Shown: positions 2 through 41,719 of the stretch, one piece after another | Numbering within the stretch: position 1 is the stretch's first letter | Layout: each line of letters begins with the position of its first letter | Origin: an uncultured Bacteroidales bacterium | GTDB taxonomy: Bacteria; Bacteroidota; Bacteroidia; Bacteroidales; Paludibacteraceae | Assembly (NCBI GenBank): GCA_903901975.1 | Contig: CAIUTB010000135.1 | Span: 1-41,719, forward strand | DNA length: 41,719 bases | Direction: 5' to 3' | The notes under the pieces: generated by a model | The model's input: the letters and a program-made list of their open reading frames with translations, nothing else | Database searches by the model: none | What the model was told of the DNA's origin: nothing | Program-made: the position numbers and the translations under genes

Positions 2-2122
2 GCCACTTATCCAACTACATTGAAAAATACCATTGTTCACAATAATGACATGACGTTTATTCCAAAAACCGGATCTACATATAGTTTAGGAAATGCTGGT
101 GCGGTAACAAATTATGCAGCTGCTAATTCACAGTCCGATTCTGTTATCAATTGTACAATTGCTTATAATAAAGGAATAAAAATAGGTTGTGCCGGTTTAA
201 AGATTGGTATTCAATTCAATAATTTCCAATATCCTTATGTAAAAATATTTAATAATGTGTGTTATAATAATGCCGTAGATGGATCAATTGGCACAATGGG
301 AAATTTGACATTGTCGGCAGGTGCTGCAACATTATTGGCTGGTGGAATTCAGATTGCAAATAATTATGCAAATGGTGGAGCAGATCAAATTGTTGAAAAC
401 TCAACTATAGTTACTGGCAATGTTAAGGATATGGCAACTGACAATAACGATGCTACCAAAGGTGCAAAATTTATTTCACCAACTACAGTTACAGGTTATA
501 ATGCTGCACTTGCTGCTTCGAAATGGACTATCGGAACTGGTTCGTATCTTATCGCAAAAGGAATAGTTACAACTAATAAATATGACAAAGCAGGCGTAAT
601 ATTTGCAACGACTCCATCGGTAGGCGCTTATGAGGGCGGAGATGTGGTTATACCAACATCCGGTACTCAAAATATTTCATTGACAACTTCATTAAAATCA
701 TTGACAGTGAATCCGGGTGCAAAACTGACTTTGAACAATAATGTTTTTCTTACTGTAGGATCGTTAAACCTACTAAGTGATGCAACCAACGGTACTGGAA
801 CTTTTGTTGACCAGAATGCCAACGGTGGTTTAACGGTAACCGGAACAAGTACAGTTAATCAATCTTTACAGGCTGCCAGTGCCTTGAGAACCTGGTATAT
901 TACGCCGCCCGTTGCTTCTGCCACACCAACACCGGCATTGACTATTATTAAATATTTCGATGAAACGATAAATACCGGTACCGCAACCGATAACTGGGTA
1001 ACTGCAACAACAATGCTTGCCCAAAAAGGCTATCAGGTAGTTCCCGTTAGCGGAAATGATATTTCATTCACAGGTACCTTGAACAATGGAAATCAAAATA
1101 TTACATTAAGCAGCAGAACCGGAACAGCTAATTATGCCGGATTCAATTTAATTGGTAATCCCTATCCATCCTATCTCGATTGGAGTTTAGTTACTGCCAA
1201 TACTGCCAATGCTGCGTTAATGCGTTCAACTACCATGTGGTATAGAACAAAATCTTCTGGTGTATATAATTTCTGGACAGTGAATGGTGCTGGTGTGGGT
1301 TCTCCAAGCAACGCAAGTTCTAAAATTCCACCCATGCAAGCATTTTGGGTCAGAGCCAATGCCGGTGGCGGAACCCTGGCTTTGACCAATGCCATGCGTA
1401 CTCATGCTCCTGCCAGCGATTTATTATTAAAAACACCAGCAGCGAAAAACAACACAGCTAAGACACTCGTTCGTTTGCAGGTAAGCAATGGAACGAATAC
1501 CGACGAAGCTGTACTCTATGTCAGTGGAAATGCCTCCAATGGAATGGATACCTATGATTCGCCTAAAATGAGCAATAATAATGTTGCCATACCCGAAATT
1601 TACACAACCGTTGGTACAGAACAACTGGTTATCAATGCTATGAATACTCTTCCATTGGATACTCCCATTGGGTTGGGATTTGTAGCCGGCAATGCCAGTT
1701 CATTTAGTCTTACTGCCAACCAGATCAGCAATCTTCCTGCAGGTGTGAAAGTAATTCTAAAGGATAATGTAACCAGCACAGAAACCGATCTGACTGATGG
1801 TATTTCGACTTATCGATTTAATCCGGTGGCAACCAGTTCCGACCGCTTTAGTGTCATTTTCCGTTCGTCAGGAGCTGTTACAAATGTTGAAACTACTCTG
1901 GATAATAACCTGATTGTTTATAGCAATGCCCCTCAACAGCTAACAGTAATTTGTAATGATAAAATTCAGGTTGGTTCAATGCTTTCAGTTTACAACGCGA
2001 TCGGTCAAAAACTGCTGAGTCAACCATTGACCAGTACAAGTACTCAAATTACCGGAAAATTTAACCCAGGAGTTTATATGTTGAAAGTGAATAACACAAC
2101 AAAGAAAGTTATTATCAATTAA
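2..2122 (+). CDS. Large T9SS-secreted beta-helix-type protein, 5' end outside window (partial)
   Basis: The frame is open from base 2, and the first in-frame start-like codon (TTG at 20) is preceded by sense codons, so the gene begins upstream of the window; 706 residues are visible. The N-terminal part is Asn/Gly/Ala-rich with motifs such as NNVCYNN and STIVTGN, typical of the end of a right-handed beta-helix (PbH1-like) domain, and ends near the marker SVGAYEGGD. Next comes a beta-rich module with the landmarks LTVNPGAKLTLNNN, GNPYPSYLDW, PPMQAFWVRA, TNAMRTH and DSPKMSNNN. The last ~75 residues (SVYNAIGQKL, then NPGVYMLKVN and KKVIIN) are a type A T9SS sorting domain, so the product should be exported and anchored at the cell surface or released. 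The C-terminal ~450 residues closely resemble those of the protein at 37431-41501. No catalytic motif was recognised; adhesin, glycan-binding or enzymatic roles are all possible. Confidence 0.9.
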   Translation, partial: ATYPTTLKNTIVHNNDMTFIPKTGSTYSLGNAGAVTNYAAANSQSDSVINCTIAYNKGIKIGCAGLKIGIQFNNFQYPYVKIFNNVCYNNAVDGSIGTMGNLTLSAGAATLLAGGIQIANNYANGGADQIVENSTIVTGNVKDMATDNNDATKGAKFISPTTVTGYNAALAASKWTIGTGSYLIAKGIVTTNKYDKAGVIFATTPSVGAYEGGDVVIPTSGTQNISLTTSLKSLTVNPGAKLTLNNNVFLTVGSLNLLSDATNGTGTFVDQNANGGLTVTGTSTVNQSLQAASALRTWYITPPVASATPTPALTIIKYFDETINTGTATDNWVTATTMLAQKGYQVVPVSGNDISFTGTLNNGNQNITLSSRTGTANYAGFNLIGNPYPSYLDWSLVTANTANAALMRSTTMWYRTKSSGVYNFWTVNGAGVGSPSNASSKIPPMQAFWVRANAGGGTLALTNAMRTHAPASDLLLKTPAAKNNTAKTLVRLQVSNGTNTDEAVLYVSGNASNGMDTYDSPKMSNNNVAIPEIYTTVGTEQLVINAMNTLPLDTPIGLGFVAGNASSFSLTANQISNLPAGVKVILKDNVTSTETDLTDGISTYRFNPVATSSDRFSVIFRSSGAVTNVETTLDNNLIVYSNAPQQLTVICNDKIQVGSMLSVYNAIGQKLLSQPLTSTSTQITGKFNPGVYMLKVNNTTKKVIIN

Positions 2123-2141: not shown

Positions 2142-2315
2142 ATGAAAACAATAATTGATAAACGAGACTATTCTCAACCAGAAATAACGCATGTAGAACT
2201 TGACAATGAAATCTCGTTGGCATTGGAATCGAATCCGGCTCCCGGACCTAATGAAGTTATGAATAATGCTCCTGAACACTTCAATAATGATCCGTTTAAA
2301 GCGAATTTGACGTAA
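2142..2315 (+). CDS. Small acidic protein (57 aa), conserved partner of T9SS beta-helix gene
   Basis: An ATG at 2142 opens a 57-codon frame ending at TAA 2313-2315, 19 bases after the upstream gene, so the two are probably co-transcribed. I recognise no named family. The protein has no signal peptide or membrane segment, is acidic (about 10 Asp/Glu against 4 Lys/Arg), has a central Pro-rich stretch (SNPAPGPNE), and ends in NNAPEHFNNDPFKANLT. A homologue of 58 residues lies at 41522-41698, also directly after a T9SS protein with the same C-terminal module; both carry ELDNEI, LES and NAPEHFNNDPFK-x-N. Most base differences inside the shared C-terminal block are synonymous (CAC/CAT, AAT/AAC twice, GAT/GAC, AAA/AAG), which is good evidence that it is translated and under selection. 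A chaperone, assembly factor, or processed peptide linked to export of its partner are possibilities, none demonstrated. Confidence 0.75.
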   Translation: MKTIIDKRDYSQPEITHVELDNEISLALESNPAPGPNEVMNNAPEHFNNDPFKANLT

Positions 2316-2340: not shown

Positions 2341-2390
2341 AAAAAGAAAGGATGTTTGGTATTATAGTCAAACATCCTTTCTTTTTTAAC
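2341..2390 (+). terminator. Rho-independent terminator after small-protein gene
   Basis: An 18-base perfect inverted repeat (2341-2358 with 2369-2386; core GAAAGGATGTTTG / CAAACATCCTTTC) with a 10-base loop ends in a run of T. The A-run on the 5' side makes it plausible in both directions. It closes the transcription unit made of the beta-helix gene and the small protein. Confidence 0.9.
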
Positions 2391-14750: not shown

Positions 14751-16640
14751 ATGAATAGATTTAAACTCTTTATTTTTGCATTAACAGTTGTTTTATCGGC
14801 TAATGCAACTGTATATTATGTTAGTCCGGATGGTGATGGCACTAACGGTCTTTCCTGGTCAACAGCATTCAAAACATTGCTGGATGCACAAAAAAGCGTG
14901 GCATCACCTTGTGACGTTTGGGTAAAACAAGCTATTTACAATGTGACAGATACTACATTGACAATGTATAGCGGTGTAAATGTCTATGGAGGATTTTTAG
15001 GAAATGAAACCAGTTTAAGTGCTCGTAGTAAAAATGCAGCTCTCACGGTGTTGAATGGAAACAAAAAGCGCAGAGTATTGAGTGCATCTACTGCTTTGAC
15101 CATAGAAACGATTTGGGATGGATTCACGATTCAAAATGGAAGTTATGCAAACGCCGGGGGAGTTTCATTACTGAAAAATTCGACTTTGCAGAATTGTATT
15201 GTTCAGAATTGTAAAAATACAACCAACAGTGGCGGTGGAGTATATATGGCAACGGCAACTATGGATTCAGTAAAGTTAATAAATTGTGTGATTAAAAACA
15301 ATATTGTTTATTACAATGGAACCTCAACTTCTCCTGCTGGTGGTGGAGGCGTATATGTGCTTCCGGGTTCATTTACAGCTGTAATAAGGGGTTGTACGAT
15401 TACCGGTAATGTGGTCGATGGCGAAAGTTTCTCCGGAGCAAAAATGTATGGTGGTGGTGTTTTCCTTTGCGATGGTTCTATTTACAATTGTGTTATCAGC
15501 AAAAATAAAGCAACCAGTCTTGATCCGGGAACAGGTGCATTGACCGTTACCGGGAATGTACATGCCGGTGGTATTATGATTATGCCAGGAGCTACAACTG
15601 CTGAAATAGTTGTAAATGGCTGTAAAATTACCAACAACATGACTGATGTTGGTCAGGGTGGTGGTATGAGAATTGATCCATACTGGACAGGAACTGCTGT
15701 TTCAGGGAAAGTGAGAATATTAAACTCAGTTGTGACTAATAACTTTAGTCGCATGGCTGGTGGTGGGATTATGTGTGACTCGCAGAATGCTTCATCAACT
15801 ATTGATTATTATTTTGAGAATTGTATTTTTGGAAATAACGAAACACAATTAAGTCAGGGTGGAGGAGTATTTATCAATAATAAAACACCTACAACCGTGC
15901 GTTTTGCTAATTGTAATATTGTAAATAACCGCATGGACACTTACAACTACGGTGGTGCTGGAATCTACTTTAACAATATTGCCTGTGACATTACAAACTG
16001 TCTTTTCTGGGGAAATTTGAATGCAGGTACAGCTCCATTGAAACATCACCTTAGAACTGCCGGTGTATCAGGTAACAGTTTCATTTATTGTGCTTTTGAT
16101 TCAAGATACAGAGAATTAGAAGTCTCTCCAACAGCTTATCCTGCAATATTGGATGGGAAAGTAAGTCTGGCATTGGCAAATACAGGAACAGACTCAGTTT
16201 ATGTGAAATTTGTAAACCCAACGACATTCACAGGCACTGCTAAGACATTAACAGATTCATTAGCAATTACGAATGCAAACTGGGCTATTTCTGGAACATC
16301 AGCATGTGTTGATGCCGGTGCAACAATTCGTACGTTGACAAATGATATTATTGGCATAGCTCGTCCGCTTGGAAATGGCTATGATATAGGCGCTTATGAA
16401 TTTGATGTAACTGCCGGTGTGAAAAATGTAGTAGAAAGCAAATCGGTAGCTTATGGAGTTTCAGGTGGATTAATATTAAAAAATATTGATAATGAAACCG
16501 AAGCTACGATATATAACCTTATAGGGTCAATGCTTAGAAAAGTGAAACTAACCAACGGTGACAACAGAATTGAGCTTCCTGCTAATCAACTATATCTTAT
16601 AAAATCAGGAAAATTGTCTGTAAAAGTATTGGTTATATAG
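14751..16640 (+). CDS. Secreted right-handed beta-helix protein (PbH1 repeats) with degenerate T9SS-like tail
   Basis: 629 residues. The signal peptide (FKLFIFALTVVLSANA) is followed at once by ATVYYVSPDGDGTNGLSWSTAF, the standard opening of secreted Bacteroidota beta-helix proteins. Repeats of about 20-40 residues rich in N, G, C and V follow to residue ~540 (NCVIKNN, GGGVYVLPGS, RGCTITGNVVDG, GGGMRIDPYW, NCNIVNNRMDT), ending with the marker GIARPLGNGYDIGAYEFD. The last ~70 residues (ATIYNLIGSMLRKVKL, LPANQLYLIKSG) resemble a T9SS type A sorting domain lacking some usual glycines. It is a paralogue of the products of 20034-22187 and 37431-41501. Beta-helix folds occur in pectate lyases and many glycan-active proteins, but no catalytic triad is obvious, so the function is open. 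Confidence 0.88.
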   Translation: MNRFKLFIFALTVVLSANATVYYVSPDGDGTNGLSWSTAFKTLLDAQKSVASPCDVWVKQAIYNVTDTTLTMYSGVNVYGGFLGNETSLSARSKNAALTVLNGNKKRRVLSASTALTIETIWDGFTIQNGSYANAGGVSLLKNSTLQNCIVQNCKNTTNSGGGVYMATATMDSVKLINCVIKNNIVYYNGTSTSPAGGGGVYVLPGSFTAVIRGCTITGNVVDGESFSGAKMYGGGVFLCDGSIYNCVISKNKATSLDPGTGALTVTGNVHAGGIMIMPGATTAEIVVNGCKITNNMTDVGQGGGMRIDPYWTGTAVSGKVRILNSVVTNNFSRMAGGGIMCDSQNASSTIDYYFENCIFGNNETQLSQGGGVFINNKTPTTVRFANCNIVNNRMDTYNYGGAGIYFNNIACDITNCLFWGNLNAGTAPLKHHLRTAGVSGNSFIYCAFDSRYRELEVSPTAYPAILDGKVSLALANTGTDSVYVKFVNPTTFTGTAKTLTDSLAITNANWAISGTSACVDAGATIRTLTNDIIGIARPLGNGYDIGAYEFDVTAGVKNVVESKSVAYGVSGGLILKNIDNETEATIYNLIGSMLRKVKLTNGDNRIELPANQLYLIKSGKLSVKVLVI

Positions 16641-37430: not shown

Positions 37431-40400
37431 ATGAAAAAAATTACATTATTGATTATTTGTGTGTTGGGCTTTATACTTGGGTCTAATGCTGGAACTGTTT
37501 ATTATGTAAGCTCAACTGCGACGTTAGGGTTACAGAATGGTTCGTCCTGGGATAATGCTTTTTTAAGCCCTGCTGCAGCAATTGCCAGTGCAACACCTGT
37601 TTCCGGGGATGAATTCTGGGTGAAGCAAGGGACTTACGTTCTAACTGCTCAATTATCATGGGAAACCGGTCAAAGTTTTTATGGTGGCTTCGTTGGTACA
37701 GAGACTCTTCGAAGTCAACGAAGTACGGATGCAACATTGACAATTTTAGATGGAAATAATTTATACCGGGTTTTAAATGCTCCATCTATGGCATCGCCTA
37801 CAACCTGGGATGGTTTTACTATACAGAATGGTGCTCAAGCTACTGGCGCAGGTGCATTTCTTCAGAAAAATGCAATTTTAAGTAACTGTATTTTTCAAAA
37901 TAATAAAGCAGTAAATGTAACATCACCTTATGTTGCAGCAGGTGGTGCAATTTATATTCAAGGATTAGCAGGAGATGCTGATTCTATCAAAGTTCTAAAC
38001 TGTACGATTAAAACTAATTCTGTAAAATCAGCAGCTGTTGCTTCAAATTATTGTGGAGGCGGTGGAATTTATATCAAACCCGGTTCTATTAAAGCTGTAG
38101 TTAGAGGATGTACCATAGATTCAAATATAGCAGATGGTTTGGGTACCGCTAATGCAATTGTATCTGGTGGAGGTATATATATGTGTGATGGCATCATTGA
38201 TAACTGTACTATCAAAAATAATACTGCAACCAATGCAAATCCCACAACATTTGTACTTACAAATGCAAAAAACCAAGCAGGTGGTATATTTATAATGCCT
38301 CAGGCTTCTACAAATACAATTGTAAAAAATACTACAATTTCAGGAAATTCTGCTCCCACTTACGTTGGCGGAGGTATTGCAATTGACCCATTATATACAA
38401 CCACAGTTGTAACTGCGAAAACAAGTATTTTAAATTGTACTATAGTTAATAATTCTACCTGGGGTGCAGGTGGAGGTGCTATTACGGCTGCAGGAAATGC
38501 AACCTCAACTTCAGAATATGCATTTAACAATTGTATAGTTACAAATAATGAATCGAGTAGTGTTGCTGCAGGTGGAGGTGGTATATTTGTAAATAATGTT
38601 GCTGGCACATCTATTGCTAAGTTTATAAACTGTACAGTTGTTAACAATAAAATGTTGACTACAAATTATGGAGGTGCAGGAGTATTTTATAACAATATAG
38701 CTGCAGATATTACAAATTGTGTTTTTTGGGGAAATGGCAGTGTTGGAGCATTAGCACCCTACAATGTAAGGGTTAAAAATACACTCACCACAAACAAATT
38801 GATTAATTGCGCTTTTGATAGTCATTTTAACGAATTAGAAGTTTCCCCTGTTGCTACACCAGCTGATCTTACTGGTAAAGTAATTGTAGATGTAAATAAT
38901 ACAGGTTCAACTGGTGGTACATTATATGCTAATTTCACAAGTCCTACGAATTTTATAGGCAAAGTGGTTACAGCGGGAGATGTTACTTCATTTGCTAGTG
39001 CTGATTGGTCTATTGCATCAACATCAGCTTGCAAAGATGCCGGAACTACAGTTGCTTCAGTAACTACCGATATACTTGGAACTCCACGTCCACAAGGAGG
39101 GGTTTATGATATAGGTGCTTATGAAGTAAAAACTATTCCTATTCTTGATGCTACTACTGCTGCAAGTTCAATTACTTCAAGTTCAGCTTCGAGTGGAGGT
39201 AATATTACTGCTAATGGTGGTGCAAGTGTTTCTGCACGTGGTGTATGTTGGAATCAGTCTATTAATCCAACAATATCTAGTGCTCACACCACTAATGGAA
39301 CAGGAAATGGAAGTTTCACAAGTAGTTTTTCAGGGCTTCAACCAAATAAAACTTACTATGTAAGAGCTTATGCAACCAATAGTGTCGGAACAGGTTATGG
39401 TGCGCAAATAAGTTTTACAACACTTCTTGGAACTCCAGATATAACATTCAGTACTCCAACATCTGTTAGTAAATCTTATGGAGATGCTAAGTTTACAAAT
39501 ACAGCAGGAAGCAGCAACTCTGCTGGTGCTATAACTTACAGTAGCGGGAATACAAGTGTCGCAACGGTCGATGCATCAACCGGAGAAGTTACTATTCTAA
39601 CCTCAGGTTCAGCAGTAATTACCGCTAATATTGCAGCCAATGGAGACTATAATTCAGGTTTATCAACGTATACTGTAAATGTTTCACGTGCATCACAAAC
39701 CATTACATTTGGAATGCAGGTCAATAAAAATGTAGGTGATGCCGATTTCAGTCCTGCTACCGTCAGTTCGGGCTTGACCGTTTCGTACAGCAGTACCAAT
39801 ACGGCAGCAGTAAGCATTGATGGTACTACGGGATGGATTCACATTGTTGCTCCGGGAACAACTACTATTACTGCCTCTCAAGCCGGAAATGGGAATTATA
39901 ATGCAGCCAGCAGTGTGGATCAAAGTCTAACGGTGAATTCGTCAACTATAACCGTTTCGTCAAACAGTAATATCTCAACATTATCTCCAACTTCGGCTAT
40001 CGATCTAACTGTTTCGGCTGGCTATGAATTAACCGTTAATGCCGATGCAAATGTGAAATCTATCACTGTTGCCCCGGGAGCAAAATTGACTTTAAATAAC
40101 ACAAGTGTGCTTACTTCCACAAATGGAATTACACTTCAAAATACCGCTTCCGGTACAGCCTCTTTTGTGGATAGTCGTACTGCAGATAATCCTTCGGTCC
40201 TAGCCGGTATAGTACAACAAGACATTACCGAAACCAATCGGAACTGGTATGTGGCTGTACCTGTTTCAGGAAAATCTGCTTCCGATATTACACTTTCAGC
40301 TGCAAAAATTATAAAACGCAACGAAGGATTTTCAAGTTGGGATGATGTAAGTGGTTCTCTAACTGCAGGTGTCGGTTATATAGCTGTGGCTTCAACTAAT

Positions 40401-41501
40401 TCAGGAACCACAAGCTGGTCGTTGAATGGCAACCTGAACAGTGGTAAAGTGGAAGTGCCTGTAACAAATTCAGGAGCAAGTTCAACTGGTTATAATTTGT
40501 TGGGCAATCCTTATCCCTCGTACCTTAACTGGGAACAAGTACTAAATTTGAATGCTACCAACGCCTCACTTCTGCAATCCACTATTTGGTATCGAACAGC
40601 AACTTTCAATAACGGCCTGAGCAAATTTGATTATAGCTTCAATACCTATAATTCCACCGGAAGAATGAGTATACCAGCCAGCACAACGGGTTATATTCCA
40701 CCTATGCAGGCATTTTGGGTTCTTGCTGGCAGCGCCGGAACAGTAACATTTACCAATGCCATGCGTTCGCATGGCGATGGAGCAAGCAATAAACTCAAAG
40801 CACCAAGTCTAAATCAGCAACAAATCCTTCGTTTGCAGGTATCTAATGCTGTAAACAGTGATGAAACCTTAGTGTATTTCAACCCGAATGCTTCAAACGC
40901 TTATGATAATTTTGATTCTCCCAAAATGTCGAACAATATAGCTTCTATTCCTGAAATATTTACCATGGTAGGAACGGAAAAATTGGTTATCAACGGAATG
41001 AATAGTGTCATACCTAATCAGGAAATTCCACTCGGTTTCAGCACCGGACAATCCAATACATTCACTATTAAAGCCACTGAAATAAGTAATTTTAATGATG
41101 GTACTCAAATCTTTTTAAAAGACAGTCAGACAAATAATGAATGGAATTTGACGGATGGTTCGGCATATAACTTCAGTTCAGATATTTCAAGTTCTAATAC
41201 CAGTCGTTTTAGTGTGATTTTCAAAGCAGCGTCAATCACTACCGGTATTATAAATAGTAAAGGTGCTTCCAATTCAATCCTGATCTATCGGAATGTCAAC
41301 AATCTGATTAGCATAAATTGTGTAAATGGTATTGTAGGAGAAGCCAGCGTGAGTGTTTATAACGCAGTGGGTCAGAAATTAGCTGAACAAGCATTACAGA
41401 GTTCAATAACCATTTTAAGCAGATCATTTACTCCAGGAGTTTACCTTGTAAGTGTTAGGGCTAATGCTAAAAGTTGCACTCAAAAAGTAGTTATCAATTA
41501 A
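37431..41501 (+). CDS. Giant multi-domain T9SS-secreted beta-helix protein (beta-helix, FN3-like, Ig-like repeats)
   Basis: 1356 residues. A signal peptide (KITLLIICVLGFILGSNA) precedes a beta-helix domain to ~565 (TVYYVSSTATLG, GGGIYIKPGSIKAVVRGCTI, GGGIAIDPLYT, closing PRPQGGVYDIGAYE). Next are an FN3-like module (~569-660; GVCWNQSINPTISSAH, NKTYYVRAYATNS) and two Ig-like repeats (~663-748 and ~750-831; ITYSSGNTSVATVDASTGEV, SYSSTNTAAVSIDGTTGW). A beta-rich module (~840-1265) has GNPYPSYLNW, PPMQAFWVLA, TNAMRSH and DSPKMSNN. The end is a type A T9SS sorting domain (~1283-1356; SVYNAVGQKLAEQ, FTPGVYLVSVRA, KVVIN). The C-terminal ~450 residues are homologous to those of the partial protein at 2-2122, and the beta-helix part to the product of 20034-22187. 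The likely role is a surface-exposed or released adhesin or glycan-binding protein; no enzyme site recognised. It is followed 20 bases later by a small-protein gene, as is the partial paralogue. Confidence 0.92.
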   Translation: MKKITLLIICVLGFILGSNAGTVYYVSSTATLGLQNGSSWDNAFLSPAAAIASATPVSGDEFWVKQGTYVLTAQLSWETGQSFYGGFVGTETLRSQRSTDATLTILDGNNLYRVLNAPSMASPTTWDGFTIQNGAQATGAGAFLQKNAILSNCIFQNNKAVNVTSPYVAAGGAIYIQGLAGDADSIKVLNCTIKTNSVKSAAVASNYCGGGGIYIKPGSIKAVVRGCTIDSNIADGLGTANAIVSGGGIYMCDGIIDNCTIKNNTATNANPTTFVLTNAKNQAGGIFIMPQASTNTIVKNTTISGNSAPTYVGGGIAIDPLYTTTVVTAKTSILNCTIVNNSTWGAGGGAITAAGNATSTSEYAFNNCIVTNNESSSVAAGGGGIFVNNVAGTSIAKFINCTVVNNKMLTTNYGGAGVFYNNIAADITNCVFWGNGSVGALAPYNVRVKNTLTTNKLINCAFDSHFNELEVSPVATPADLTGKVIVDVNNTGSTGGTLYANFTSPTNFIGKVVTAGDVTSFASADWSIASTSACKDAGTTVASVTTDILGTPRPQGGVYDIGAYEVKTIPILDATTAASSITSSSASSGGNITANGGASVSARGVCWNQSINPTISSAHTTNGTGNGSFTSSFSGLQPNKTYYVRAYATNSVGTGYGAQISFTTLLGTPDITFSTPTSVSKSYGDAKFTNTAGSSNSAGAITYSSGNTSVATVDASTGEVTILTSGSAVITANIAANGDYNSGLSTYTVNVSRASQTITFGMQVNKNVGDADFSPATVSSGLTVSYSSTNTAAVSIDGTTGWIHIVAPGTTTITASQAGNGNYNAASSVDQSLTVNSSTITVSSNSNISTLSPTSAIDLTVSAGYELTVNADANVKSITVAPGAKLTLNNTSVLTSTNGITLQNTASGTASFVDSRTADNPSVLAGIVQQDITETNRNWYVAVPVSGKSASDITLSAAKIIKRNEGFSSWDDVSGSLTAGVGYIAVASTNSGTTSWSLNGNLNSGKVEVPVTNSGASSTGYNLLGNPYPSYLNWEQVLNLNATNASLLQSTIWYRTATFNNGLSKFDYSFNTYNSTGRMSIPASTTGYIPPMQAFWVLAGSAGTVTFTNAMRSHGDGASNKLKAPSLNQQQILRLQVSNAVNSDETLVYFNPNASNAYDNFDSPKMSNNIASIPEIFTMVGTEKLVINGMNSVIPNQEIPLGFSTGQSNTFTIKATEISNFNDGTQIFLKDSQTNNEWNLTDGSAYNFSSDISSSNTSRFSVIFKAASITTGIINSKGASNSILIYRNVNNLISINCVNGIVGEASVSVYNAVGQKLAEQALQSSITILSRSFTPGVYLVSVRANAKSCTQKVVIN

Positions 41502-41521: not shown

Positions 41522-41698
41522 ATGAAAGCACAAAATAAAATGAACCGATTGTATGAATCGCCACTGATTGAGCGGATAGAATTGGATAACGAAATAGCTC
41601 TCCAATTGGAATCCACACCACCACCGGCACCGGGTGAAGCGAAACTAAATGCTCCTGAACATTTCAACAACGACCCGTTTAAGACGAATCAGGTCTGA
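41522..41698 (+). CDS. Small acidic protein (58 aa), homologue of 2142-2315 product
   Basis: ATG 41522 to TGA 41696-41698. The order of features equals that of the 57-residue protein at the other end of the window: a Tyr/Ser/Pro start (LYESPLIERI), ELDNEIALQLES, a Pro-rich hinge (TPPPAPGE), and the C-terminal block LNAPEHFNNDPFKTNQV. It has no signal peptide, no membrane segment and no Cys. It lies 20 bases behind the T9SS gene, nearly the same spacing as the first pair (19). Cytoplasmic location is expected unless it is exported by an unusual route. A later in-frame ATG (codon 7) is an alternative start, but the first fits the matching upstream position better. Function unknown. Confidence 0.75.
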   Translation: MKAQNKMNRLYESPLIERIELDNEIALQLESTPPPAPGEAKLNAPEHFNNDPFKTNQV

Positions 41699-41719
41699 AA
41701 TGAATTATTCGGTTTACTC

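Follow-up and report, generated by a model that had tools for sequence, protein, structure and literature searches.

A family of small genes behind T9SS surface protein genes

The stretch of DNA analyzed here (the window; 41,719 nt, contig C135 of a 3.97-Mb genome in 170 contigs) carries a small gene near each end, both on the forward strand. ORF calls and the family alignment placed C135a (57 aa) at 2142..2315 and C135b (58 aa) at 41522..41698, starting 19 and 20 nt past the stops of the genes at 20-2122 and 37431-41501, respectively. This is what the sequence-only reading had described, and the blocks that it had found common to the two small proteins were likewise present. Both genes encode acidic, precursor-like peptides (pI 4.5 and 4.9). 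In C135b, a leader-type stretch from Tyr11 to Ser31 (41552-41614, with the codon of the invariant Ser31 at 41612-41614) is followed by a tail containing NDPFK (41615-41695); the corresponding stretch of C135a, Tyr10-Ser30, lies at 2169-2231.

The gene upstream of C135b (37431..41501, +) encodes a T9SS type-A surface protein of 1356 aa with a beta-helix (a sub-threshold Pfam match), a choice-of-anchor Q domain and a RemA-like C-terminal module. The gene upstream of C135a (20..2122, +), whose 5′ end is cut by the contig start, encodes the C-terminal 700 aa of a T9SS type-A surface protein with the same module. The conserved module core (A3 profile) was found at 40650..41246 (314.7 bits) and 1292..1882 (283.7 bits), and the T9SS type-A sorting domain (TIGR04183, cut-off 23) at 41283..41498 (39.0 bits) and 1916..2119 (34.0 bits), all on the forward strand. 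The two proteins are 40% identical over their last 500 residues, in agreement with the homology previously claimed for their C-termini. Downstream of C135a, an intrinsic-terminator-like stem-loop followed by a U-run occupies 2341..2386 (+; z-score of the 2316-2400 stretch, -6.6), a site at which a pattern scan reported no terminator. The stem-loop would fit a single transcription unit that ends with the T9SS gene and the peptide gene.

A search of the whole genome returned 20 peptide matches, none of which (0/20) had an internal stop. Contigs C92 and C119 each begin with a 19-residue match, and both share exactly 82 nt with the ends of C135 and C80, so these two matches only repeat the 3′ ends of other copies in the count. 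The match on C134 is incomplete, truncated by the contig start, and belongs to a further copy. The genome therefore holds about 18 peptide genes, 17 of them complete, so that the earlier description of the family as present twice was right about both copies but understated their number. The identical 82-nt 3′ end (41638-41719 in the window, and the ends of C80, C92 and C119) breaks the assembly, and the window stops 21 nt past the stop codon of C135b because of this repeat. The identity of the 3′ ends of C135b and the C80 copy suggests a recent exchange between copies.

Peptides in this genome are 53-79% identical to the window copy and mostly acidic (pI 4.05-6.55), and no signal peptide was seen in them by eye. 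Over the 17 copies, mean pS was 0.705, mean pN 0.237 and mean pN/pS 0.34, with regional pN/pS values of 0.25 in Tyr11-Ser31 and 0.32 in the tail; dN/dS was saturated, and hence unusable, for 52 of the 136 copy pairs. The small ORFs are a coding family under purifying selection, which bears out the proposal, made from the two window copies, that selection acts at the protein level.

The peptide genes follow a RemA-like C-terminal module

All 17 complete copies in this genome lie 11-129 nt downstream of a T9SS type-A gene with one RemA-like module. The TIGR04183 sorting domain is present in 17/17 of the upstream proteins, which have a C-terminal module of roughly 400 residues in common. Positions 13-497 of the profile of module plus sorting domain align with RemA residues 930-1435 (PDB 8gl6_D, E 4.8e-33). 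RemZ, reached through RemA in PDB 8gl6, was considered as a known small partner and dropped, as it is a large substrate in the accessible text of PMC10994853.

When the genome was searched with the module core profile, 20 places were found. The 17 strong ones (277-344 bits) are exactly the paired genes, and behind the three weak ones (56, 49 and 26 bits) the next 700 nt contain no small gene. Of 232 candidate T9SS tails, 150 were scored, including those of the 17 paired genes; no complete peptide copy lies behind the other 133 (Fisher 9e-23), where the count covers complete copies, the sequence upstream of the C134 fragment being absent from the assembly. The two other beta-helix genes of the window, which start at 14751 and 20034, have neither the module nor a small gene; the former has no sorting-domain match and the latter a sub-threshold one (22.7 vs 23 bits). 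The sequence-only reading had tied the small gene to the C-terminal module, not to the beta-helix, and this assignment held in the genome, where 17/17 strong modules are paired, and beyond it. In eight genomes of the genus, 93 of the 96 peptides with at least 250 nt of upstream sequence follow a sorting domain and module, the exceptions being L322, L331 (250 nt upstream) and the second peptide of L318. This set consists of the present genome and 80 peptide-fetched regions from seven others, taken from among the matches listed, and omits two of 99 matches (the C134 fragment and one in L332 that was missed by the motif filter).

Relatives without a T9SS neighbor, which the sequence-only reading had named as counting against such a link, exist but are a minority. 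Among 111 distinct peptides of a wider set with at least 300 nt upstream, a number that includes 17 peptides from module-fetched loci, 99 have a T9SS gene upstream, 90 directly and 9 with a PqqD gene between. Four of the remainder have a PqqD gene but no T9SS gene within 700 nt, and eight have neither, although a separate flank analysis placed PqqD beside the peptide at two of these eight loci (L124 and L136). Divergence of the peptides followed that of the modules only weakly across the 17 paralogues (Mantel r 0.28, a value reached in 283 of 5000 permutations), which does not support paralogue-specific contact between peptide and module.

Several variations of the arrangement were observed. 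At L318 (G039 contig C409), two close peptide genes apparently lie behind one T9SS gene. At L092 (G000 contig C131), the ORF behind a distant module gene ends in a Pro/Gly-rich stretch, a hydrophobic segment and basic residues; by eye, this end resembles a different type of sorting tail. Gaps of 92-129 nt separate the genes in 11 of the 17 pairs in the genome (e.g. L011, L014, L017 and L019). In 9/11 of these long gaps there is a stable stem-loop with no obvious U-run (z-scores of -2.8 to -6.6; the exceptions are C85, z -0.4, and C63, z -1.2), and this structure may make the expression of the T9SS and peptide genes unequal; the short gaps (11-22 nt) are too small to contain one. Downstream of the peptide gene, 7 of 18 examined copies have a terminator-like hairpin (-12 kcal/mol or lower, before a T-run), consistent with a two-gene transcription unit of T9SS gene and peptide gene.

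A constant N-terminal half and a variable tail

Across relatives, the N-terminal half of the peptide is constant (Y..P.I..I.LD.EISL.L.S), a leader of the lasso type (YxxPxI...LDxEISLxLxS), and the tail varies among genera (NDPFKTN, DPYKMA, YTYENW and others) while being alike within a genome. A conserved leader (Y, P, D, S/T) with a more variable tail is the form taken by precursors of RRE-dependent RiPPs. In the eight genus genomes, the Tyr, the Pro, the Asp and the Ser 20 residues past the Tyr (Y+20) are each present in 97/97 peptides, and the L332 peptide, which falls outside the motif filter, has Ser at Y+20 by eye. In the wide set of 115 distinct peptides, a count that skips matches without [YFHW]xxP, Pro is found in 115, Tyr in 113 and Asp in 114. 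Y+20 is Ser or Thr in 114 of the 115 (102 Ser, 12 Thr), and the one miss, L100, reflects a shift of register in the counting script. No double-glycine was seen by eye at the end of the leaders.

A profile of the peptides from this genome detected the family in 13 of 150 genomes of the taxonomic family. A 45-row profile, run at the order level only, detected it in 33 of 393 genomes and 27 of 207 genera, the present genome included, and a narrow profile matched the present genome alone among 395 genomes of the phylum. The peptide had no match among Pfam, NCBIfam and PADLOC models and no relative by sequence in the PDB, and the 26 pattern matches in viral contigs included no relative of it.

A cassette of RRE, kinase, peptidase and exporter genes

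We compared the flanks of 20 distant relatives, a choice that favored PqqD-linked loci. In 8 of the 20, PqqD, the peptide, an HprK-like kinase, an S26-type peptidase and an ABC transporter occur together (L125, L127-L131, L133 and L142), and 6 contain part of this cassette, some of them at contig ends (L126, L132, L135-L137 and L143). PqqD or the kinase lies beside the peptide in 14/20 flanks, and no cassette gene does so in 6/20 (L134, L138-L141 and L144). Among the 14, the gene immediately before PqqD belongs to the T9SS-type cluster in 8 (L125-L128, L131-L133 and L142); L129, L135, L136 and L143 have such a gene elsewhere in the flank, and the available flanks of L130 and L137 contain none. 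The operon order in the distant relatives is T9SS protein, PqqD/RRE, peptide, HprK-like kinase, S26-type peptidase and ABC exporter. When 15 cassette loci were compared, including that of the present genome on contig C60, T9SS-type genes clustered together in 13/15. The only families recurring in at least 12 of the 15 were T9SS, PqqD, kinase and S26/ABC, and every other family was found in two at most. The unit of the distant relatives is thus larger than the two genes proposed from the window.

On contig C60, a T9SS gene is followed by the peptide C60a, the RRE, the kinase (294 aa) and a 750-aa ORF that combines peptidase and ABC regions. The kinase is the only one in the genome. Two PqqD genes scored above the cut-off, one of them just behind the C60a peptide, so that, as for RRE-dependent RiPPs, PqqD is linked to one copy of the precursor and acts, if at all, in trans on the others. 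Because a terminator-like hairpin separates the C60a peptide gene from the RRE gene, the two need not be on one transcript. The second PqqD gene (G000 contig C96 near 91898; L145, L153) is followed by ORFs that we take to be ATP-grasp-like and then decarboxylase/racemase-like, and its locus possibly belongs to a different peptide or amino-acid pathway. Kinase loci of the genus have PqqD and a single ORF with S26 and ABC matches in 27/27 cases, with a peptide within 1.5 kb in only some; at 29 further kinase loci of the order (L181-L209), PqqD was found in 24 and S26 in 25.

The RRE matched PF05402 with 46.2 bits (cut-off 23.4), and its best PDB matches were lasso PqqD/B1 proteins, 9x90 (3.6e-10) and TbiB1 5v1u (6.8e-9). 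By motif and PDB matches, the combination of a YxxPx[LI] leader and a B1-type RRE would therefore be of the kind seen in lasso systems. The four RREs scanned stayed below the lasso PqqD model NF033536 (26-44.7 bits vs a cut-off of 80). The kinase has a conserved GxSGxGK[ST]T P-loop and an invariant DD, and its PDB matches, to PEPCK (2.9e-4) and HPr kinase (2e-3), are weak. In Pfam, the best match of the kinase in this genome was PEPCK_ATP (30.2 bits, cut-off 26.5); it scored 20.6 bits against HprK_rel_B (cut-off 200), and the four kinases scanned were all below the HPr-rel-A/B cut-offs (TIGR04352/TIGR04355; 41.7 bits at most vs 200). In the peptidase, the motifs GxSMxP and HR are present in 11/11 sequences and KGD in 10/11 (RGD in L133), and the L127 protein matched the signal peptidase I model TIGR02228 (67.6 bits vs a cut-off of 51.85). 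With PADLOC models at 0.01, no match was found for the peptide, the RRE or the T9SS protein; the kinase and the ABC ORF matched several ATPase-bearing models, weakly except for mad3 (ABC ORF, E 1.6e-30).

Among the matches listed for a single search pattern, a complete cassette was also present in a MAG titled Alphaproteobacteria (L249, contig SACF01000018.1), and its adjacent T9SS gene suggests a mis-binned Bacteroidota contig. Two Flavobacteriales MAGs (Crocinitomicaceae; L252 and L253, again among the matches listed) contain kinase and PqqD and, nearby on the opposite strand, divergent peptides behind module-bearing T9SS genes. The pairing of T9SS gene and peptide seems to reach named Flavobacteriales too.

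Peptide, module and kinase co-occur across genomes

Among 48 genomes of the genus, the kinase is present in 27, once in each, and the peptide was found in 26 of these 27 vs 5 of the 21 kinase-free genomes (Fisher 1.3e-7, or 2.0e-7 with the present genome left out; Fisher values across genomes are descriptive, as the compared genomes are related). The module was found in 26/27 vs 2/21 (Fisher 3.4e-10). Peptide matches numbered up to 26 per genome and rose with the number of modules (Spearman 0.94, and 0.97 within kinase-bearing genomes). Exceptions were the five kinase-free genomes with the peptide (G007, G008, G016, G021 and G041), of which G008 and G041 are 94% and 97% complete, G036, with the kinase and no peptide in a single-sequence search, and G002, with kinase and peptide and no module at 1e-20.

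At the order level, where the peptide and kinase searches were taken to cover the same 393 genomes from their matching number and handles, the peptide was found in 26 of 29 genomes with a strong kinase match (a cut of 1e-45, set after the scores had been seen) vs 7 of 364 others. Since 12 peptide-linked loci had supplied the sequences for the kinase profile, we recounted without their genomes and obtained 14/17 vs 7/364 (Fisher 6e-18). With a kinase cut of 1e-10, the peptide was present in 27 of the 70 genomes with the kinase and in 6 of the 323 without it (Fisher 2e-17). Seven peptide genomes of the order are without a strong kinase, and three genomes with a strong kinase (G616, G687 and G886) had no detected peptide. 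A kinase at E <= 1e-60 was found in 3 of 395 genomes of the phylum, including the present one.

Discussion

We propose, with a probability of about 0.75, that the small proteins serve as precursors in a RiPP-like system of Bacteroidota, guided by an RRE, that modifies and exports peptides. The sequence-only reading had offered three functions, namely a chaperone or escort, a regulator, and a peptide that is modified or exported with the large protein. Of these, a modified peptide is now the best supported, because of the recurring PqqD/kinase/peptidase/ABC operon of the distant homologues and the genome-by-genome co-occurrence with the kinase. A cargo-specific chaperone or a regulator is not favored, given the Mantel r of 0.28 and a unit of more than two genes.

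The family, its pairing, the operon, the co-occurrence, the conserved residues and the catalytic motifs can be read directly from the sequences, and from them we infer leader binding, phosphorylation, leader cleavage, export and contact with the module. The N-terminal half of the peptide (about Met1-Ser31) would serve as a leader, with the PqqD-type RRE binding its lasso-like YxxPx[ILV] motif and handing the peptide to the HprK-like kinase, whose most likely target for phosphorylation is the invariant Ser/Thr at Y+20. The S26-type peptidase, which has Ser, His and Asp motifs and is fused to the ABC transporter in the genus, would then cut off the leader, and the transporter would export the tail. 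In the bsf lasso system, as described in the accessible text of PMC10368454, the YxxPxL precursor BsfA is phosphorylated by the HprK-like BsfK at Ser3, which by its numbering is 19 residues after the leader Tyr, and the reaction is faster with the RRE BsfB1. Because of this precedent and of the similar spacing (19 vs 20), phosphorylation of Ser/Thr at Y+20 is our leading hypothesis. Several observations count against the RiPP-like reading: the tails resemble each other in a genome, whereas many RiPP antibiotics have varied cores; the peptide matches no known model; the kinase and the RREs score below the HprK_rel_B and lasso cut-offs; some genomes have the peptide or the kinase but not both; PqqD and S26 are each missing at a few kinase loci of the order; and a hairpin precedes the RRE gene on C60.

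A single cassette on C60 would have to serve about 18 dispersed precursors, each behind a module-bearing, adhesin-like T9SS gene, and this arrangement may give each surface protein its own dose of an interchangeable peptide. The dose argument fits because every module gene has its own peptide gene despite the single cassette, the peptides are alike, and their divergence only weakly tracks that of the modules. If one common peptide is needed per surface protein, this points to the shared module as its partner, and the exported tail most likely ends on, or acts with, this module at the cell surface. We advance more tentatively the possibility of a peptide-decorated adhesin, in which each module-bearing T9SS protein carries one kinase-modified, ABC-exported peptide, covalently or non-covalently, so that the Sec/T9SS and RRE-ABC routes converge.

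A variant of the RiPP-like reading concerns the HprK-like protein, which could be another P-loop enzyme of the PEPCK/HprK superfamily, with the invariant Ser/Thr as the last residue ahead of the S26 cleavage site. PEPCK_ATP is indeed the best Pfam match of the protein in this genome, and a small residue such as Ser at -1 suits signal-peptidase-type proteases. Thr, however, which is common at phosphosites and rare as a -1 residue, occupies Y+20 in 12 of 115 peptides, and the L128 homologue matches Hpr_kinase_C, although with 26 bits it stays under the cut-off of 33.3; we hold this variant to be somewhat unlikely. Less probable still is a free secreted signal or bacteriocin-like peptide for which the T9SS protein would be a receptor, an immunity factor or a delivery partner. 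The RRE, putative modifying enzyme, protease and ABC transporter are indeed arranged as in RiPP export, and the precursors are many and dispersed. The tails of paralogues in one genome, however, resemble each other and show purifying selection. Nor does an immunity gene stand out, because no family outside the cassette occurs in more than two of the 15 cassette loci.

It is improbable that the peptide gene is a passenger that moves with the 3′ end of T9SS genes by module recombination, most dispersed copies being redundant. Such movement would explain the identical 3′ ends of C135b and C80 (82-nt overlaps) and the weak co-divergence of peptide and module, but not the purifying selection in both leader and tail, the lack of internal stops in the 20 matches of the genome or the leader residues that are invariant in 97/97 peptides. 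We give the least weight, as very improbable, to a cargo escort, in which the small protein would act in the cytoplasm as a chaperone or pilot, bound to the C-terminal module of the partner T9SS protein until Sec export. Strict adjacency to module-bearing genes and a small, mostly acidic product (pI 4.05-6.55) with no signal peptide by eye would suit such a role. It leaves unexplained, however, the RRE-kinase-peptidase-exporter operon, the co-occurrence with the kinase at the genome level and the lasso-type leader, and the paralogues co-diverge only weakly with their modules. We return to the RiPP-like reading: as far as sequence comparison goes, the small proteins fit best as RiPP-like precursors whose genes lie in cis to T9SS genes and in trans to one RRE-kinase-protease-exporter cassette.

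If this is true, RiPP-type peptide modification is linked to the Type 9 secretion system, and one maturation cassette serves many dispersed precursors, each tied to a surface protein. For one class of short hypothetical genes in Bacteroidota, the reading would supply a function that can be tested; it would also offer a route to learning the role of the RemA-like C-terminal module, and it suggests an S26-type analogue of bacteriocin protease-exporters. In the open-licence literature in PMC, we found no paper on this peptide-T9SS system, and in open-licence literature none that brings PqqD together with T9SS. In term searches of the accessible text of RiPP papers, 'HPr kinase' and 'HPr' were absent from PMC10352776, PMC7470986 and PMC12710340, and T9SS was absent from PMC10352776 and PMC12710340. 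We did not find a prior description of one processing set serving many scattered precursors linked to surface proteins.

The closest resemblance among known systems is to the phosphorylated lasso peptides (BsfA/BsfB1/BsfK and the paeninodin type), in which, as far as the accessible descriptions go, a YxxPx[LI] leader, a separate PqqD-type RRE, an HprK-like kinase and an ABC exporter also occur together and the Ser lies at nearly the same distance from the Tyr (19 vs 20 here). The present system differs in its S26-type peptidase and in its precursors, which are dispersed behind T9SS genes, and flank clustering of the 15 cassette loci gave no recurrent family corresponding to a lasso B2 peptidase or an AsnB-like cyclase C. 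The upstream proteins resemble the RemA/RemZ-type T9SS substrates of Flavobacterium johnsoniae in their C-terminal module and sorting domain, although no small companion of RemZ is mentioned in the accessible text of PMC10994853. The NCBIfam models for HPr-rel-A/B and SynChlorMet cassettes likewise pair an HprK-like kinase with PqqD and match weakly, but the scores are far under the curated cut-offs, and the present cassette includes a T9SS gene and S26-ABC. As in the PCAT (C39-ABC) bacteriocin exporters, a protease forms the N-terminus of the ABC exporter in the present and genus cassettes (27/27), but it is of the S26/S24 type with Ser, His and Asp motifs rather than C39, and no double-glycine was seen by eye in the leaders. 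In systems of the prochlorosin type, one maturation set likewise serves many precursors dispersed over the genome; the precursor genes here, in contrast, are coupled to those of surface proteins, and tails from one genome resemble each other.
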